Virus record (IMG/VR): IMGVR_UViG_3300009537_000195 | Location: 1 to 22,571 of that record | Direction: 5' to 3' (one strand) | Length of the DNA: 22,571 nucleotides | Source of the DNA: a virus | In this document: one piece after another, positions 204-16,033 of the stretch | Layout of the letters: each line of letters opens with the position of its first letter | Numbering within the stretch: the first letter of the stretch is position 1 | Translations under genes and position numbers: made by a program | The notes under the pieces: model-generated | Database searches by the model: none | Seen by the model: only the letters and a program-made list of their open reading frames with translations | What the model was told of the DNA's origin: nothing

Positions 204-965
204 GTGGGGTTGGACGATACTAAATCTATTTTAGCCAATGCTAGAGTAAAGGCTTTAGAAGCAGAAGCAGCAAAGCTTTTAGCTGAGGCTCGTTCCTCTG
301 AACTACATAATTCTTATGCAACAATCGAACTTTTAAGAAAACAGGAAGAGGAAGCAAAGAGGGTTGCTAGCGACTATCATCATAGAGTATACAGATTTGA
401 TGATGTTGTTCAGACAGTTTCAGTAAAGAAGTGTATGGAGGCTTTAGCTCAGTGGCACAGATTAGATATTGCAGAAAATCAGTCTCCAAGTCACTTGTCT
501 GTTGTCTTCTCTAGTCCTGGTGGTTCAGTTATTGATGGATTTGCGTTATTTGATTTTATTCAGGAGTTAAGAGGCAGTGGTCATGTTATCACTACTAAGG
601 CTCTTGGTTATGCAGCTAGCATGGCGGGTATTCTTTTACAGGCAGGAGATGATCGCGTAATGGCTGCTCAGTCTTGGTTGATGATCCACGAAGCAGCCTT
701 TGGTGATATTGGTAAGACCTCTGATATTGAGGATAGGGTTAAGTGGGTTAAAAAGATTCAGGATAGAACTACAGATATTTTTGTCTCAAGGATGAATTCT
801 GCTCTTGACAAGAGAGAAGCAGATGGTGAGACTCTTAAGAGAGGACAGCGCCTATCCAAGCAGACTTTCCAGAACAGGTGGCTTCGCAAGGATTGGTGGC
901 TTAGTTCTGATGATGCTTACTACCACGGTTTAATTGATCGTATAGATAATACAATGTCCGTTTAG
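204..965 (+). CDS. ClpP-like serine protease, copy 1 (candidate prohead protease)
   Basis: This 253-residue protein carries a ClpP/S14-type fold after a ~55-residue Glu/Ala/Lys-rich helical N-terminal extension. Visible hallmarks are the oxyanion motif SSPGGSVIDG (about 103-112), nucleophile Ser139 in GYAASMAG, His162 in LMIHEA, and Asp230 in RKDWWLS, aligned with the catalytic Asp of E. coli ClpP. The triad is therefore intact. Phages often use ClpP-like enzymes to process scaffold and capsid proteins during head maturation; that role here is inferred. It starts with GTG after a strong ribosome binding site. It is unusual in lying far upstream of terminase, before decoration-type genes, and in having a second ClpP-like gene at 4100. 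The N-terminal extension may act as a targeting or assembly segment. Confidence 0.85.
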   Translation: MGLDDTKSILANARVKALEAEAAKLLAEARSSELHNSYATIELLRKQEEEAKRVASDYHHRVYRFDDVVQTVSVKKCMEALAQWHRLDIAENQSPSHLSVVFSSPGGSVIDGFALFDFIQELRGSGHVITTKALGYAASMAGILLQAGDDRVMAAQSWLMIHEAAFGDIGKTSDIEDRVKWVKKIQDRTTDIFVSRMNSALDKREADGETLKRGQRLSKQTFQNRWLRKDWWLSSDDAYYHGLIDRIDNTMSV

Positions 966-1072: not shown

Positions 1073-1891
1073 ATGGCACTTACGTTAAGTAAAACTAGAT
1101 CAGGAGTTGTGGGTGACTTAGCCTATTGGCTTGGTACTGCAACCTTTGATAATGCTTATGCAGTTGGTGGGGAATCTTTTACGGCTGCCAATGCTGGCAT
1201 GAGTAATATTCTTTGGGCTAGTACAGTTCTAAGGGGAGCAGGAAATCAGGCTTCCGCTGCATGGGATGACGCTAACTCTAAGATTAAATTATTTGCAGAA
1301 GTTATTGGCCCTACTGCTGCTATTGATGGAGAAACTGCGGTTACAGGATTAATTCAGGATGATGATGCTGCGGCTTCAACTGGCGTTGCTGTCTATGCTG
1401 TTGTTGATTCTGATCCCGGTATTGTGGGGGCTGCAAGAGGCCACTTCGAGTTCGTCTCTCCTACCAATGCTGATGGACGCGGAGAGTGGAGTGCGACCTA
1501 TAAGAATCAGTTTTTTATTAAGGATAATGATGATGCTGCTACGGCTGGAACGGCGGTTCGTGCTGTTGCTGCGGGTGCAGGTTTAGAGTCTACTTTTGGT
1601 GCAGCCCTTGGTGCTAATGGGCCTCTGTACGTTAAGTTAGCCCACGGTGGAGTTGCTACAACTAACTTCCCCGATGTGTATGTTGCAGTTACAGAAGCAA
1701 CTACAGGGTCTACGCCAACTCTTTATTTTGATGAGGATGCGGCTGAGGAGTCTGAGCGGTTAATGGCAGTTGTGGTAGACAATACTGATGAAACATTCCC
1801 CGTTCTAACTGTCTATGGTTATGAGGAAGTTCCAGTAGGAACAGATTGTGATCTGGCAGTTGTTGATGTTTTTGCAGTTGGTATTCCGTAA
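1073..1891 (+). CDS. Putative virion decoration or appendage protein, long form with inserted Asp-rich domain
   Basis: This 272-residue, Ala/Thr/Val/Asp-rich protein is probably all-beta, with no signal peptide or membrane segment. Residues 21-77 align with residues 35-89 of the next gene (DNAYAVGGES versus DDAYASGGES, then DDANSKIKLF versus DVANEKFVVY). The short tail ending DVFAVGIP also aligns with the neighbour's end. Between them, residues ~93-241 form an extra domain also found inside the protein at 2265. That domain has GHFEFVSPTNADG, KDNDDAATAG, GAGLES and YFDEDA motifs. The family resembles small structural proteins of environmental phages that begin MALT and contain DxxYxxGGES; that recollection is from general familiarity. 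The role as capsid decoration or tail appendage is inferred from context. AAAGGA lies 12 bases before ATG. Confidence 0.55.
   Translation: MALTLSKTRSGVVGDLAYWLGTATFDNAYAVGGESFTAANAGMSNILWASTVLRGAGNQASAAWDDANSKIKLFAEVIGPTAAIDGETAVTGLIQDDDAAASTGVAVYAVVDSDPGIVGAARGHFEFVSPTNADGRGEWSATYKNQFFIKDNDDAATAGTAVRAVAAGAGLESTFGAALGANGPLYVKLAHGGVATTNFPDVYVAVTEATTGSTPTLYFDEDAAEESERLMAVVVDNTDETFPVLTVYGYEEVPVGTDCDLAVVDVFAVGIP
1349..1795 (+). repeat. Inserted ~149-residue Asp-rich domain, copy A
   Basis: This segment encodes residues ~93-241 of the gene at 1073. It aligns along its length with residues ~61-206 of the protein at 2265. Shared blocks include QDD-DAA-TGVA, GH-EF-SPTNADG, DND-AA--GTA, AAGAGLES, YFDEDA and MxVxVDNxDET. 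The copies are diverged at DNA level, so the duplication is not recent. The domain contains its own repeat of a DxDxAAxxGxA motif. Confidence 0.75.
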
Positions 1892-1900
1892 GGATAAATT

Positions 1901-2263
1901 ATGGCTATTACCATTAGTAGAAATTTACCTGGAACTACAGCAGATACAGCCGACTATCCAATTGATGTATTTCAACTTGGGGCCTATAAGGCTGTATTTA
2001 GGGTAATTACTATGGATGATGCTTATGCTAGTGGGGGCGAATCACTCGCCCCCTCTGACATAGGTTTTGCAAAAATTTATGCTGTTGCTGTTCTTTCTGC
2101 AAATACGGCAGCTCTTTCAGCATCTTATGATGTTGCAAACGAAAAATTCGTAGTTTACCCCGTTGCTGTTCCTGCTTATGGAACTACGGCAGATACCGTT
2201 ATCGAAACACCGTTTCCTGATCTTACAAATGTTCAGTTTACTGTTTTGATTGTGGGGAGATAA
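1901..2263 (+). CDS. Putative small virion decoration protein, short form of the preceding gene
   Basis: This 120-residue protein looks beta-rich and lacks membrane segments or cysteines. It aligns with the preceding 272-residue protein across the DDAYASGGESL region and the DVANEKF strand. After that strand it runs directly to its C-terminus (QFTVLIVGR), whereas the neighbour carries an extra ~150 residues. The pair therefore looks like bare and domain-inserted versions of one scaffold. It starts at ATG after AAGGATAAATT, nine bases beyond the previous stop. A structural role at the virion surface is inferred from neighbours and the small all-beta character. No enzyme motif is visible. Confidence 0.55.
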   Translation: MAITISRNLPGTTADTADYPIDVFQLGAYKAVFRVITMDDAYASGGESLAPSDIGFAKIYAVAVLSANTAALSASYDVANEKFVVYPVAVPAYGTTADTVIETPFPDLTNVQFTVLIVGR

Positions 2264-2264
2264 T

Positions 2265-3044
2265 ATGACTAATCGATTAGCTCGTAGAGCATTTACAAAA
2301 TCAGTAGCGGATACTGCTACTAGCACTACACTATTAGACGAAAACCCCGCTCGTTTGGGAGCATCTATCTATAATGATTCAACGGTTAATCTCTTTTTAA
2401 AATTAGGTGAATCGTTGGTAGCTGAGAGTTCAACGTCTGTTACATTCCAGGATGATAACGATGCAGCTACTACGGGTGTAGCTTTGTATGTTGTTGTGGA
2501 TCAAGTTAATCCTCTTGGTGATGGATATAATATTGGTCACTTAGAGTTTATATCCCCAACTAATGCAGATGGATCAGCTAGATTAAAGACTGGAACCAAT
2601 GCGTTTGTTCCGGTTAGAGATAATGATAATGCTGCTTCACGGGGTACAGCTATTAGTGCTCAGGCAGCAGGAGCGGGTTTGGAGTCATTAATGTTAGGAA
2701 CTAATCCTACTCTTATCCCTATCTATGATGATACGACTTATAGAACATTAACAGGAAAGTATTTGTATATCGCTAATCCAACCTCTCTTACGGCTGGTGG
2801 AGCATTACTATATTTTGATGAAGATGCAACCAATGATTATGAAAAGATCATGGGTGTGATTGTTGATAATGCCGATGAAACTGCATTAGCCTATCAGTTT
2901 AGTGCTACTGCTTCTTCAACTGATTTTACGGCTAGGTTAGTTCCGAATGATCTGTATGAAACTCCGTTTGGGTTTACAGGAGTTATTACAGGAATTTGGT
3001 CTTCCGATGCTTCTGGATCGGCTAGAATAACGGAATTCGTATAA
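2265..3044 (+). CDS. Putative virion appendage protein, long form with inserted Asp-rich domain
   Basis: This 259-residue protein is started at ATG 2265 rather than the in-frame TTG at 2250, because GGGGAG lies just before the ATG and the previous gene stops at 2263. Residues 11-48 and 213-257 match the 113-residue protein at 3618: RLGASIYNDS versus RLGATIYNDG, ATASSTDFTA versus TASTTAFTVE, and ITGIWSSDASGSARITE versus ISGIWDVANGSARITE. Between these halves, residues ~49-212 are additional and mostly correspond to the Asp-rich domain in the gene at 1073. The outer module is a type I associate with tail or capsid surface proteins of environmental phages (RLGAxIYND...GSARxTE). Its exact position in the virion is unknown. 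Its stop overlaps the next start as TAATG. Confidence 0.55.
   Translation: MTNRLARRAFTKSVADTATSTTLLDENPARLGASIYNDSTVNLFLKLGESLVAESSTSVTFQDDNDAATTGVALYVVVDQVNPLGDGYNIGHLEFISPTNADGSARLKTGTNAFVPVRDNDNAASRGTAISAQAAGAGLESLMLGTNPTLIPIYDDTTYRTLTGKYLYIANPTSLTAGGALLYFDEDATNDYEKIMGVIVDNADETALAYQFSATASSTDFTARLVPNDLYETPFGFTGVITGIWSSDASGSARITEFV
2445..2882 (+). repeat. Inserted Asp-rich domain, copy B
   Basis: This segment encodes residues ~61-206 of the gene at 2265, homologous to copy A (1349-1795). Conserved pieces are FQDDNDAATTGVALY, GHLEFISPTNADG, RDNDNAASRGTA, AAGAGLES, YFDEDA and MGVIVDNADET. In both copies the domain sits between segments of an unrelated small beta-rich protein, and the equivalent protein without it is encoded nearby. 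Confidence 0.75.
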
Positions 3045-3604
3045 TGCCGCTTTATCATAATAAAGAAAAAAGCAGGGCAGAGAGACAGCTTGAAGGAGCT
3101 GGCTTTATTGCTGAAACTTATTCTCGTATAGGCACTATGGGAGATGCGGGAGGAAACTATTATAGTTGGTCTAACGGATCTGTTGGTGAAGGAAACGCTA
3201 CTTTGATAGCGTTGAATAAGGGCGAGGTTATTACCAACCTCCATTGTCTTATTGGTACTGCTGGTGATACTGTTACATATGGAAAGATGGCTCTATATGA
3301 TAAGAGTGGTACTCAGTTAGCTATTACAGGAGACGAAAAAACCGCCTTTGATGATAATAGCGGATTACAGACAATGGCATTAACAGCGGCTTATACTGTA
3401 CCTACAACTGATGTATATTATGTCTGTGTTCTACAAGTAGCTACTACCGCTGCTACCCTGTTAGAGCCCTCTAGTTTTACGGGAGTGGGTGCTGCGGCAG
3501 GATCAGGAAAGCCTCTTAGTGTTTCTCAGGGAAATGCAGCCACACTAGAAGCATCAGTTACATTTACTGTTAATGCTCATAATGTTTGGTTTGCAGTTAG
3601 TTAA
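3044..3604 (+). CDS. Putative virion appendage protein sharing a beta domain with the gene at 15233
   Basis: This 186-residue protein is translationally coupled to the previous gene (TAATG, no clear ribosome binding site). Residues 63-128 align almost without gaps with residues 141-206 of the protein at 15233: ITNLHCLIGTAG versus ITNIHCWIVTAG, then SGTQLAITGDEKTAF versus SGTKLAETGNESTAF, then LQTMALTAAYTV versus LKTLALTSPYSI. The ends also match (NVWFAVS versus SVWVALS). The pattern suggests a jelly-roll-like appendage or receptor-contact domain. The N-terminal ~40 residues differ between the two, as expected if each anchors to a different place on the virion. Receptor binding is inference only. 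Confidence 0.5.
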   Translation: MPLYHNKEKSRAERQLEGAGFIAETYSRIGTMGDAGGNYYSWSNGSVGEGNATLIALNKGEVITNLHCLIGTAGDTVTYGKMALYDKSGTQLAITGDEKTAFDDNSGLQTMALTAAYTVPTTDVYYVCVLQVATTAATLLEPSSFTGVGAAAGSGKPLSVSQGNAATLEASVTFTVNAHNVWFAVS

Positions 3605-3617
3605 AGGAGAATAAATT

Positions 3618-3959
3618 ATGCCGTTATATGGACATCCACTCTCTGATGAGGAACTAAGAGCATTACCTGTTGAAACAATTTCGGGCAAAGCCGGAACTTC
3701 CACGATAACTTCTGTTGCTTCTTCTATTACTAGTGTGTCGTTATTAGCTGCTAATACTGATAGACTTGGTGCAACGATTTATAATGATGGTAATAAGAAG
3801 TTATATATTGCTTTTGGCTCTACTGCTTCAACTACCGCATTTACTGTTGAAGTTCATAAGGAACAGTATTTTGAAGTTCCTTATACTTATACAGGAGAAA
3901 TTAGTGGTATTTGGGACGTTGCCAATGGAAGTGCGAGGATTACTGAATTAGAGGCTTAA
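3618..3959 (+). CDS. Putative small virion surface protein, short form
   Basis: This 113-residue protein follows a good ribosome binding site (AAAGGAG). Residues 31-67 (TSVASS...RLGATIYND) and 68-110 (STASTTAFTV...GIWDVANGSARITE) match the two separated halves of the 259-residue protein at 2265. Here the halves are contiguous, joined at IAFG/STAST. This is therefore the bare version of that scaffold. Residues 1-30 are specific to this protein. A compact beta-sandwich is likely. Its stop overlaps the next start as TAATG. Confidence 0.55.
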   Translation: MPLYGHPLSDEELRALPVETISGKAGTSTITSVASSITSVSLLAANTDRLGATIYNDGNKKLYIAFGSTASTTAFTVEVHKEQYFEVPYTYTGEISGIWDVANGSARITELEA

Positions 3960-4099: not shown

Positions 4100-4801
4100 A
4101 TGGATGAAATTAATCTACAGTCTGAGGATTCACGATTTGTTACGCTTGGTTTGGAGAAAGTAGAAGCTGAAAGAGATTTATTTTTGGCGCAGAAGAAACA
4201 GGTTGAAATTGAAATTAGAAACTCTGAGCTTAGTTATAAAAGTAATTTAAGAACTCTTGATAGTTATGGAGTTCTTGAAGAGGAACGAGGAGTATTCACT
4301 TTCTATTCTATTATTACCGAAGATACCATTCTTCCCTTTATGAAAAGGTTGGATGCTTGGAGTGGAAGAAATATAGGAAAACCAATAACAATTATTTTTA
4401 ATAGTCCGGGCGGTGTAGTATTCGACGGCCTTGCTTTTTATGACTTCATGTGTGAGTTAAAGCGGCGGGGGCATAAGCTTACTACTAAGTGTATTGGTGC
4501 TGCAATGAGCATGGGAGCAATTCTGTTGCAGGCCGGTGATGAAAGAGTTATCTCTTCTAATGCTTTCTTCTTGATCCATGAGGTACAGCTTTTCATGGAC
4601 GATCATAGAGGATATTCAACTACTCAGTTAGACGATCAGAGAGAGCTTCAAAGAAAGCTACAGAAAAGGATTGTGGGTCAGTTAGCGGAGAGAAGTAGTC
4701 TATCTGTTGAAGAGATTGAAGAGAAGTGGAAGCGGCAGGATTGGATGATGGATGCCGAAGAGGCTCTTAAGTATGGTTTTGTTGATGTGGTAGATTATTA
4801 A
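4100..4801 (+). CDS. ClpP-like serine protease, copy 2 (candidate prohead protease)
   Basis: This 233-residue protein has a Glu/Lys-rich helical N-terminal segment (residues ~15-50) followed by a ClpP-like domain. Visible residues are FNSPGGVVFDG (~100-110), Ser137 in AAMSMGA, His160 in FLIHEV and Asp214 in RQDWMMDAEEA, so the triad is complete. The region around the nucleophile resembles copy 1 (SMxxILLQAGDxRV), so the two are related but well diverged. AGGGGTG lies upstream of ATG. Its stop overlaps the start of the large terminase gene (TAATG), so the two are probably co-translated. Head maturation is inferred: no other protease lies in the portal-scaffold-capsid block. Whether the two ClpP proteins form a mixed ring is unknown. 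Confidence 0.85.
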   Translation: MDEINLQSEDSRFVTLGLEKVEAERDLFLAQKKQVEIEIRNSELSYKSNLRTLDSYGVLEEERGVFTFYSIITEDTILPFMKRLDAWSGRNIGKPITIIFNSPGGVVFDGLAFYDFMCELKRRGHKLTTKCIGAAMSMGAILLQAGDERVISSNAFFLIHEVQLFMDDHRGYSTTQLDDQRELQRKLQKRIVGQLAERSSLSVEEIEEKWKRQDWMMDAEEALKYGFVDVVDY

Positions 4802-13179: not shown

Positions 13180-15233
13180 TGTCGGTTGATAGTATTGATT
13201 TAACGGGAGGTTCTAGCACAATTAATCGTGCTGTTGCTCCGCATCTTATTTCCGATTATGAATTTGAGTTTGGTACTGATGTATTGTTTGATCGGCCTGG
13301 ATATGTAAGGCAGAGAGGCCCCCTTAAGAGAGCGCAGAATACAGACCCATCTAACACCCCTACTGTAGCTAGCTCTACTCCATATGCAATTGTGCATTGT
13401 ATTGATCCTGCTGGTATTGTAAAGGTAGGGCTTCTATTAAATGTTAGTAGTCAAATGCGTTTATATGTTCTATCTTCTGATTATGAAACTGCAACTAATG
13501 TAGATAATTGGGGAGTTGATGGCGATGTAATTGCCACAAGTCCAAGCGTGGGACAGGCAGGAGGTATATGGATTGGTTCTTCTTTAAACTTTGTTACTTC
13601 AAGTAATGCATTATTGTGGAGAGGGGCTAGTGTAGCAGGGGTTGTTGAACCCGCTACAGAAACTATTTCATGTACGAGAGGATCAACTACTGTTACAGGA
13701 TCGGGTACTAGTTTCCTAACGGAAGCATCCTCCGGTTCCTTTTTGTTTGCTAGAACAGATACGTTTACATCTACAAGCTGCTATATTGGTGTAGTAAAAA
13801 GCGTTACTAATGATACAGAGTTAGTATTAGAAGCAGGAGCTTTAGATACATCTACTACTAAGGCTTATACTTTAACTGGCCTTAGAAATAGACAGAATCA
13901 TCAGAGTAGAGGGAAAATTACTTGTACCACAACCTCAACTGCTCTTACAGGAGGTAATACCAAGTTCAGGTCAGGGGGGTTGGATAATAGTTGGTATTTA
14001 TTTAGGCGCAGAGACATGGCTTACATAGGTAAAGTTTCTACTGTTGTTGACGAGGATTCAATTACATTAGCTGCTAACGCTGCTGTAGACGCCACTAATG
14101 AAGAGTATGTAGCCATTGATATTGACAAAGGAAATGCTGTTGATTCTAATAATACGGCAACAGGATTTATTACTGCTACATATGCTAATCGGCAATGGTG
14201 GCTTGGAGCCAATTATAGTAATGGTTTAACAGATATAGGATCAACCGCTATTTTTTCAGATTTGTATGATGGAGAAAGTGTATATCTTGAAAAAAATGTG
14301 GGGGATTTAATTGTTGTTCCCAATTATTTCTCTGAGACAAATACCCCCATCTTAGGAGCAGTTGGTACGTTTAGCGGTTTAATGATTTTTAGGGAAAATG
14401 AAACTTCTTTGTTATTGGGAGATAGTCCCGATCAGTTTGTAACTAGGCCCCTGTATAAGGACGGACTACTGCATCCTCAAAGTATTGCTCCATATGAGAA
14501 CGGGATAGTATGGGCAGGCCGCAGAGGTATTCATTATTTTGATGGTGCTTCTGTTATTAATCTTACGAGAGATACATTAGGCGATTGGTATGTCCGTAAT
14601 TTTAATGATTATGATTACAAAACAAATAGTGTGTGGGCGATAGTTCACAGAGATCATTATATAGTTTATCTTGAAGGACAAGATACTACTTTTGTTATTA
14701 ATTTAAAGAGTGGTGCTGTATCAGAGTTTACTAATGTTCAAATTAGAGGAGGTACAAATCTACCGGGAGAGGCTACATTAGCATCCAACAAGCCGTGGGC
14801 TGTAATTAAAGATACAACAGGCGCATCATATATTGTTGATGTTGATAATTTATTTGATGAATCAGGAGTAGATAATCTTACTTGTACGGGAGAAACAATT
14901 GGCCCGAATATAAAACTAGAATCAAAGATATTTTCTTTGAATGAGTCTATGATAAAGAAGTTTTGGAAAGCATTAGCAATGAATTATAGAGCCGTTGGTT
15001 CAACTATTAAGGTTGAGGTTGCTACAGGATTAGACGGTTCTTATGCAGCCCTTACCCCTACTCCTAATTCATTTGCAACTAGCTCTACTTATGTTAGAAA
15101 GAGAGTTAAGTTTCATAAGTTTAATGAGTTTATTAGATTCAGATTAACTCCTACAACTGCAAGTGCTTTGTCTCAGTTTTGGTTTAATGATCTATCGCTG
15201 TTCTTCCGCTTCCAGAGGAAGGAAAGATTTTAA
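13179..15233 (+). CDS. Tail nozzle / DNA-stabilisation-type protein
   Basis: This 684-residue beta-rich protein resembles the P22 gp10 / T7 gp12 class that forms the short tail tube below the adaptor. The N-terminus (NRAVAPHLISDYEFEFGTDV) is characteristic of such stabilisation proteins. Residues ~161-232 and ~246-314 are two related beta modules (TISCTRGSTTVTGSGTSF and KITCTTTSTALTGGNTKF, each ending in a xSVTxDTxLxL-like strand). The remainder contains propeller-like strands (WAGRRGIHYFDGASVINLTR, IVHRDHYIVYLEGQDTTFVI). The C-terminus is aromatic and basic (LSLFFRFQRKERF). Coupling by TAATG on both sides places it in one translational unit with the adaptor and the next appendage protein. 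Confidence 0.65.
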   Translation: MSVDSIDLTGGSSTINRAVAPHLISDYEFEFGTDVLFDRPGYVRQRGPLKRAQNTDPSNTPTVASSTPYAIVHCIDPAGIVKVGLLLNVSSQMRLYVLSSDYETATNVDNWGVDGDVIATSPSVGQAGGIWIGSSLNFVTSSNALLWRGASVAGVVEPATETISCTRGSTTVTGSGTSFLTEASSGSFLFARTDTFTSTSCYIGVVKSVTNDTELVLEAGALDTSTTKAYTLTGLRNRQNHQSRGKITCTTTSTALTGGNTKFRSGGLDNSWYLFRRRDMAYIGKVSTVVDEDSITLAANAAVDATNEEYVAIDIDKGNAVDSNNTATGFITATYANRQWWLGANYSNGLTDIGSTAIFSDLYDGESVYLEKNVGDLIVVPNYFSETNTPILGAVGTFSGLMIFRENETSLLLGDSPDQFVTRPLYKDGLLHPQSIAPYENGIVWAGRRGIHYFDGASVINLTRDTLGDWYVRNFNDYDYKTNSVWAIVHRDHYIVYLEGQDTTFVINLKSGAVSEFTNVQIRGGTNLPGEATLASNKPWAVIKDTTGASYIVDVDNLFDESGVDNLTCTGETIGPNIKLESKIFSLNESMIKKFWKALAMNYRAVGSTIKVEVATGLDGSYAALTPTPNSFATSSTYVRKRVKFHKFNEFIRFRLTPTTASALSQFWFNDLSLFFRFQRKERF

Positions 15234-16033
15234 TGGCAATTAACGAGACAGGAATTAATCCTCTTACAAGAAATACTATTGGGGAGTGGACTACTGAACG
15301 CCTCCAAAAATATTTGATGGATATAATTCCTCGTTATGCCCCTCAGATTTCTGTTAGTTCAGGAGATTCGTCAACAGGAGGAACATTAGAGTTTCTTGTT
15401 GATGGAACAGAGTATGGAATTATAGATCAGCTAGAATTATTATCAGGAACCGGCACAACATTAACTGTTGATGATTTAGGTGGTTATGTAAAGGTTACTA
15501 TTGCATCATCCGGTTCCGTGCCTGATAATGATTATTTAGATGGGATGGGTTATGTGGCCCATACTTACCGCCAAATTTTAGCACAAGGTACTCAGGCTAA
15601 CGGAGCAGGTCAATTCGTTGCGGCTGCGGTTCCAATCCCCCCTGACTCCACAATAACTAATATACATTGTTGGATTGTAACAGCCGGAACGGGATCTAGT
15701 AATACGTATGCAGGTATTTATAATCTTAGTGGTACTAAACTAGCAGAGACAGGAAATGAGTCAACTGCTTTTAATTCAACAGGACTAAAAACTTTGGCTT
15801 TAACTTCCCCATATTCTATTTCGACAAAAGGTTTGTATTATGTAGGATGGACACACGATGCAACTGTAACAAGAGCAGCTTGGGCTGGAAACGAGGACGA
15901 TAGAGCCGTAGTTGCTGGCCCTGCCGGTGTTTTTCCAACTATTAATCACGGCAGCGGTTTAACATCTCTTCCTGCTTCTCTTACTCCTACTGCTGCTACT
16001 AATTCAACCTCAGTGTGGGTAGCTTTATCATAA
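15233..16033 (+). CDS. Putative tail-associated appendage protein
   Basis: This 266-residue protein is coupled by TAATG to the nozzle-like gene. Residues 1-45 look helical (TIGEWTTERLQKYLMDIIPR), perhaps an anchor to the tail. Residues ~46-92 are a short Gly/Thr-rich beta segment. Residues ~110-266 hold a domain homologous to that of the protein at 3044 (ITNIHCWIVTAG, SGTKLAETGNESTAF, LKTLALTSPYS, SVWVALS). It may be a fibre-tip or receptor-contact domain, on the tail here and elsewhere on the virion for the other copy. Function is inferred from position and domain sharing; no enzymatic motif is seen. Confidence 0.55.
   Translation: MAINETGINPLTRNTIGEWTTERLQKYLMDIIPRYAPQISVSSGDSSTGGTLEFLVDGTEYGIIDQLELLSGTGTTLTVDDLGGYVKVTIASSGSVPDNDYLDGMGYVAHTYRQILAQGTQANGAGQFVAAAVPIPPDSTITNIHCWIVTAGTGSSNTYAGIYNLSGTKLAETGNESTAFNSTGLKTLALTSPYSISTKGLYYVGWTHDATVTRAAWAGNEDDRAVVAGPAGVFPTINHGSGLTSLPASLTPTAATNSTSVWVALS

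Follow-up and report, generated by a model that had tools for sequence, protein, structure and literature searches.

Tailed phages carry immunoglobulin (Ig)-like domains that are common to unrelated virion proteins, among them decoration proteins, insertion domains of coat proteins and tail fibres (Fraser et al. 2006, as reported in PMC7602432). In a broader sense, domain mosaicism has been described for unrelated phage proteins, often receptor-binding proteins, that have a homologous fragment in common (Smug et al. 2023, PMC10684548). Here we report on a domain of comparable habit in the IMG/VR record IMGVR_UViG_3300009537_000195, a stretch of 22,571 nucleotides (22.6 kb; in the following "the window", by which we mean the whole stretch) that PHROG matches assign to a tailed phage. 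Four small proteins of this phage, P1 to P4, are built on two scaffolds, P1 and P2 on scaffold 1, P3 and P4 on scaffold 2; P1 and P3 have the same additional segment in their interior (hereafter the insert), and P2 and P4 are bare.

A domain inserted into two unrelated scaffolds

The inserts of P1 and P3 are 44% identical over ~150 amino acids (aa; BLASTP, E-value (E) 2e-33), and their Smith-Waterman score of 277 compares with a mean of 34 and a maximum of 67 in 1000 composition-preserving shuffles (z score 40). An initial annotation of this DNA had placed the four genes at 1073, 1901, 2265 and 3618 and had proposed a common domain in the longer member of each pair, with the shared blocks GH-EF-SPTNADG, AAGAGLES, YFDEDA and VDNxDET; the gene positions agree with ours, all of these blocks are present, and the comparison bears out the common domain. 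Its limits for the P1 insert (1349-1795) are exact. For P3 it had given 2445-2882; the homologous core has this end but starts slightly upstream, and the entire extra segment reaches further on both sides (Table 1). Both inserts are Asp- and Ala-rich and acidic (isoelectric point (pI) about 4.05, 14-15 Asp, few Lys or Arg), and their sub-threshold Pfam matches are scattered and inconsistent, as could also be the case if two low-complexity stretches were alike by composition. Such an artefact is refuted, however, by the z score obtained against shuffles of identical composition, by the co-linear alignment of 30 such sequences with a confident predicted fold, and by a profile built without the window sequences, which recovers both copies (E 1e-33 and 1e-30). 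At the DNA level the two window copies are ~66% identical over 250 bases and thus do not represent a recent copy; a domain search of the window revealed none beyond P1 and P3.

In both proteins the insert interrupts a scaffold. Both flanks of P3 match P4 (50% over 36 aa and 41% over 63 aa), and a profile of bare scaffold-2 proteins, from which P3 was left out, splits around the insert, with profile positions 6-56 aligning to P3 7-57 (E 1e-13) and positions 31-92 to P3 197-258 (E 5e-19), in agreement with the earlier proposal that P3 and P4 are built on one scaffold. The corresponding proposal for P1 and P2 stands for the N-terminal part that both have in common (33% identity, E 3e-9; z 14 against shuffles). 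The C-terminal strand after the insert, which is short and divergent, is not significant in the pairwise comparison (z 0.06); a profile made from the tails of other family members lends it weak support, the score of P1 being reached by 3 of 500 shuffles. The PHROG family matched by P2 (Table 1) carries no functional annotation. A comparison of profiles shows no relationship between the two scaffolds (hhalign probability 0.1%), as had also been proposed; a link between them through a weak likeness of P2 and P4 (z 4.8) was not confirmed by profiles.

The insert consists of three tandem repeats of ~47 aa, ~140-150 residues in total, and the three unit profiles align mutually in register (hhalign E 1e-7, 3e-9 and 1e-14). 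For the insert alone (157 residues, alignment of 30 sequences) AlphaFold predicts about 12 strands, with a predicted local distance difference test (pLDDT) of 85 and a predicted template modelling score (pTM) of 0.83. Each unit is predicted to comprise a strand, a short helix that includes a DDxAA motif, and three further strands, the third unit being shorter and less regular. The same segment reappears in the model of whole P1 (pLDDT 81, pTM 0.73) within an otherwise all-beta scaffold, so that according to these models the insert is a self-contained domain with a predicted fold. Nearly invariant positions in the 30 co-linearly aligned inserts are Ala, Gly, Tyr, Leu and Asp, and no conserved catalytic-looking set of residues was found in this alignment, which suggests that conservation is structural rather than catalytic. 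Foldseek and VIA-align gave no convincing PDB match for the insert alone, which is no proof of a new fold, and none was found for whole P1; by sequence, the insert matched nothing above cut-off in PHROGs, Pfam or PDB. A recurrent match to IcmS (best E 2e-5) lay below the Pfam cut-off, covered ~39 residues in one carrier (L013) and was judged spurious.

Carriers in other phages and history of the insert

Profile-guided scans of IMG/VR revealed the domain convincingly in 38 contigs (34 counted with the domain profile and four from a later scan), and also in two contigs of bacterial metagenome-assembled genomes (MAGs). The carriers fall into the classes scaffold 1, scaffold 2, head decoration, Mtd-type tail, fibre-like and short fusion (L006). 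The profile search for other scaffolds that the initial annotation had suggested thus led to phrog_766 head decoration, Mtd-type tail and fibre-like carriers, and these, together with the presence and absence of the domain in two unrelated scaffolds of the window, uphold its idea of a modular rebuilding of structural proteins. With a profile made exclusively of Mtd-type inserts, the majority of the other classes are detected (E 1e-14 to 1e-20), as are the copies of L025 and L027 (E 1e-8) and, marginally, the window copies (0.002 and 0.19); the profile that recovered both window copies, built without Mtd-type sequences as well, finds the Mtd-type inserts at 1e-14 to 1e-22. This cross-detection indicates that the family is real and that the window represents a divergent branch of it. 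What the sequences show directly is that P1 and P3 have a segment in common, that this segment is internal and built of repeats, that bare forms exist, and that the domain is spread across several scaffolds. P3 alone as query found no relative in IMG/VR, a search for close relatives of the window by terminase found none, and the mixed alignment had no match in bacterial genomes. The two MAG contigs came from a bacterial scan with the Mtd-type alignment, and in one phylum the domain was present in one of 395 genomes, namely the seed itself.

Scaffold 1 carries the insert in L007, L008, L025-L028, L035 and L065-L068, in the more distant L023 and L003-L005, and probably in L011, which lacks its beginning. 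Among those genes whose neighbours can be seen, many lie directly after the major capsid gene. In the marine-type contigs L025-L028 the inserted scaffold-1 gene is directly followed by a bare one, which repeats, independently of the window, its inserted-plus-bare arrangement in other phages. Scaffold-1 proteins of L029 (1611-2732) and L032 (2935-4080) have another, unrelated insert in the same region, so that the loop seems to take several domains, and in L023 (3245-4735) and L035 (3148-4437) His-rich repeats, which match YmaF below threshold, border the insert on either side. The model of whole P1 had good partial matches in BFVD only to proteins of ~100 aa, about the size of the bare scaffold. 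R4TP20 (~100 aa) of the haloarchaeal tailed virus Haloarcula virus HCTV-1 resembles a part of the model (TM score 0.65 by target length) that probably corresponds to scaffold 1, and by this structural likeness viruses of bacteria and of archaea may both possess scaffold 1.

Bare scaffold-2 proteins are widespread. An unannotated reading frame in phage MW202524 matches 85% of the length of P4 at 50% identity. In L051-L061 bare scaffold 2 is found both as short proteins of its own and as the last domain of fibre-like proteins, at their C-terminus, which are long (up to 1096 aa) and repetitive. L009 is a head decoration protein, which matches phrog_766 over residues 11-142 (E 4e-19) and the solved capsid decoration protein 9ocb (E 2e-8), and is followed by a likely capsid gene (L009 4600, called by position only). 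The fibre-like carriers L010 and L012 possess one full and one partial copy each. Bare phrog_766 proteins and bare Mtd-type proteins are likewise widespread.

The Mtd-type carriers (L013-L024 and L041-L050, with L023 itself also classed as distant scaffold 1) match PF21916, the second domain of Mtd, with E 1e-23 to 1e-18 and the Mtd structure 1yu4 with E 5e-14. An empty site is provided by the tail protein of Caudoviricetes sp. vir525, which aligns with L018 on both sides of the insert (55% identity over 243 residues on the N-terminal side, 62% over 58 residues on the C-terminal side) and has only a short linker in place of the insert. About 20 residues separate the end of the L018 insert from the variable region that follows. 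A template repeat lies downstream in 11 Mtd-type loci, and in 10 of these the mismatches are confined, or almost confined, to adenines of the template (e.g. 15/15, 16/16, 17/17), which is the mark of a diversity-generating retroelement; L049 is mixed (19/33), and the search for a template repeat in L021 gave none. A reverse transcriptase gene (RVT_1) follows the Mtd-type gene in L042 and L045. Near-identical Mtd-type proteins from different samples (L042 315-2135 and L043 2669-4489; L014 and L015 2537-4474) differ in the variable region at their C-terminus, which is what an active retroelement of this kind should produce. The window itself shows no sign of a retroelement, and P1-P4 are not Mtd-type.

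In a midpoint-rooted tree of 30 inserts the window copies group with L008 and L011 with full support (100/100). P3 is the sole scaffold-2 carrier in this clade, all others being carried by scaffold 1, and its position amid scaffold-1 carriers means that the insert must have moved between scaffolds at least once. When L066 is included, the two window copies come out as sisters, weakly so (71/75) and with alternatives not rejected (p 0.13-0.21); a copying of the insert within this phage lineage is, as far as the sequences go, possible. The tree alone does not give the direction of change, and some bare forms may be deletions. That the long forms are ancestral throughout and the bare proteins arose by loss is nevertheless improbable, as the occurrence in at least four unrelated scaffolds requires at least several gains, and bare scaffold-2, phrog_766 and Mtd-type proteins are widespread, with P3 as the only scaffold-2 carrier found.

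Gene layout and possible role of the insert

The P1-P4 cassette is bracketed by two paralogues of a ClpP-like head-maturation-protease, which are 31% identical to each other (Table 1); between them the order is P1, P2, P3, a 186-aa protein and P4. The 186-aa protein has a domain in common with the C-terminal half of a 266-aa protein at 15233-16033 (34%, E 2e-20), which makes this domain a third module of the phage that is present on two different N-terminal parts; the longer protein also has a sub-threshold match to DUF4082.

Table 1. Features of the window, with positions counted from its first nucleotide.
Feature	Position	Strand	Evidence
ClpP-like head-maturation-protease, copy 1	204-965		phrog_94, E 9e-38
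P1, 272 aa, scaffold 1 with inserted domain	1073-1891	+	BLASTP with P2 and P3; AlphaFold model of whole P1
P1 inserted domain, residues 93-241	1349-1795	+	BLASTP with P3; three-repeat profiles; AlphaFold
P1 insert, repeat units (about)	1349-1510, 1511-1672, 1673-1795	+	unit profiles
P2, 120 aa, bare scaffold 1	1901-2263	+	33% to P1, E 3e-9; phrog_26402, E 2e-7
P3, 259 aa, scaffold 2 with inserted domain	2265-3044	+	comparison with P1, P4 and bare scaffold-2 profile
P3 extra segment relative to bare scaffold 2 (about)	2409-2900	+	spliced alignment with P4; split of bare scaffold-2 profile
P3 homologous domain core	2439-2882	+	homology to P1 insert
186-aa protein between P3 and P4	3044-3604		
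P4, 113 aa, bare scaffold 2	3618-3959	+	both flanks of P3 match P4
ClpP-like head-maturation-protease, copy 2	4100-4801		phrog_94, E 4e-40
Terminase	4801		PHROG match
Portal	6914		PHROG match
Major head protein	10800		PHROG match

We favour, with moderate confidence, the interpretation that the insert is a promiscuous accessory module of the virion surface, which projects outward and adds contact surface. Under this interpretation unrelated virion proteins would have received a domain of ~140-150 residues in one of their loops in such a way that the host scaffold is kept intact; in this phage it occupies two small scaffold proteins next to their retained bare paralogues. The scaffold would anchor the protein to head or tail, and the inserted domain, as a non-enzymatic accessory module, would project outward and offer contact surface towards the cell envelope, glycans or other particles, by analogy with the role assumed for Ig-like domains on the heads and fibres of phages. 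A binding role, which the initial annotation had suggested as one possibility beside a stabilising one, is likely. We infer the location on the virion surface from the host proteins of the relatives, which are of the capsid-decoration and Mtd-type receptor-binding kinds. These relatives agree with the initial annotation, which had regarded P1-P4 as virion surface proteins; the gene positions of P1-P4 give no such support, since the cassette (1073-3959) lies ~7 kb from the head protein gene of the window rather than adjacent to it, and decoration is therefore not indicated by position here.

This distance is one of several points that weigh against the interpretation as a surface module. P3 alone among the carriers found has the insert on scaffold 2, by tblastn no insert carrier was found among deposited phages (P1, P2 and the insert of L004 all gave no match there), and the acidic composition (pI 4.05) would equally fit a purely physical role. 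The last point leads to the main and a serious rival, stabilisation or charge shielding, which we regard as possible, if distinctly less probable than a surface-contact module: the insert would likewise be a mobile accessory module, but one whose part is to stabilise the anchored protein or the capsid, to bind cations by means of its acidic turns or to form an acidic repulsive coat, with no specific ligand. The composition of both inserts and the recurrent acidic turns YFDEDA and DDxAA are in line with it, and T4 Hoc has been proposed to act by charge in clustering and dispersal (PMC10385173). Against it, the insert in Mtd-type receptor-binding proteins sits beside the hypervariable site, not where a general stabiliser would be most needed, and the existence of bare scaffolds implies that the insert is not needed for scaffold folding. 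A more far-reaching version of the surface-contact interpretation, namely a new fold with three-fold repeats that serves decoration proteins and, beside the hypervariable site, a retroelement-mutated receptor-binding protein as a dedicated transferable module for contact with hosts or surfaces, can only be put forward tentatively.

A further domain type that behaves like the Ig-like domains would suggest that pluggable modules are common to virion surfaces and that insertions are tolerated in certain loops. Since one genome naturally offers inserted and bare proteins in pairs, the function of the module can be tested directly, and its place beside a hypermutated receptor site sharpens the question of its role in host recognition.

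Comparison with known systems

That unrelated virion proteins can have one domain in common is already known from Ig-like domains and from domain mosaicism; the present domain is unnamed in Pfam and PHROGs, and we found no prior description of it in open papers. No description of it was found in Smug et al. (PMC10684548), and 'decoration' is absent from their main text; in the present case a single genome has both states for each of two scaffolds. phrog_766 and capsid stabilising (decoration) proteins such as 9ocb chain H and 5wk1 chain X have the same scaffold as L009, whereas P1-P4 have other scaffolds; deposited phrog_766 relatives match only the scaffold part of L009 (about residues 5-115) and are without insert. 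The Mtd-type carriers resemble Mtd (major tropism determinant) of Bordetella phage BPP-1 in the second domain and in a variable region at the C-terminus that is supplied by a template mutated at its adenines, but Mtd of BPP-1 is likewise without insert. In its predicted architecture, three internal repeats of about four strands as given by unit profiles and predicted strands, the insert recalls a beta-trefoil; the solved trefoils 3tc2 and 3h6r, however, were listed at E 4-6 with TM scores below 0.2, and VIA-align gave no Z of at least 2.

The closest parallel in habit is offered by the Ig-like domains of phages, which in the accounts of PMC7602432 and, for T4 Hoc, PMC10385173 are likewise accessory, often absent in relatives and thought to project from the particle. 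Similarly, the present domain occurs in several unrelated classes of virion proteins (scaffold 1, scaffold 2, phrog_766, Mtd-type and fibre-like) and is optional, as P2, P4, vir525, L025-L028 and the phrog_766 relatives demonstrate by their bare forms. It appears to differ from Ig-like domains in that no Pfam Ig family exceeds the cut-off in 30 members (one weak match to Big_1, E 0.009), in that Foldseek lists no Ig domain for the insert, although a missing match does not exclude a fold, and in its predicted topology, in which 157 residues form three repeats and about 12 strands instead of one Ig sandwich. Pluggable accessory domains on phage particles, hitherto known mainly as Ig-like, would thus be joined by another type that shares this habit but is apparently unrelated to them.

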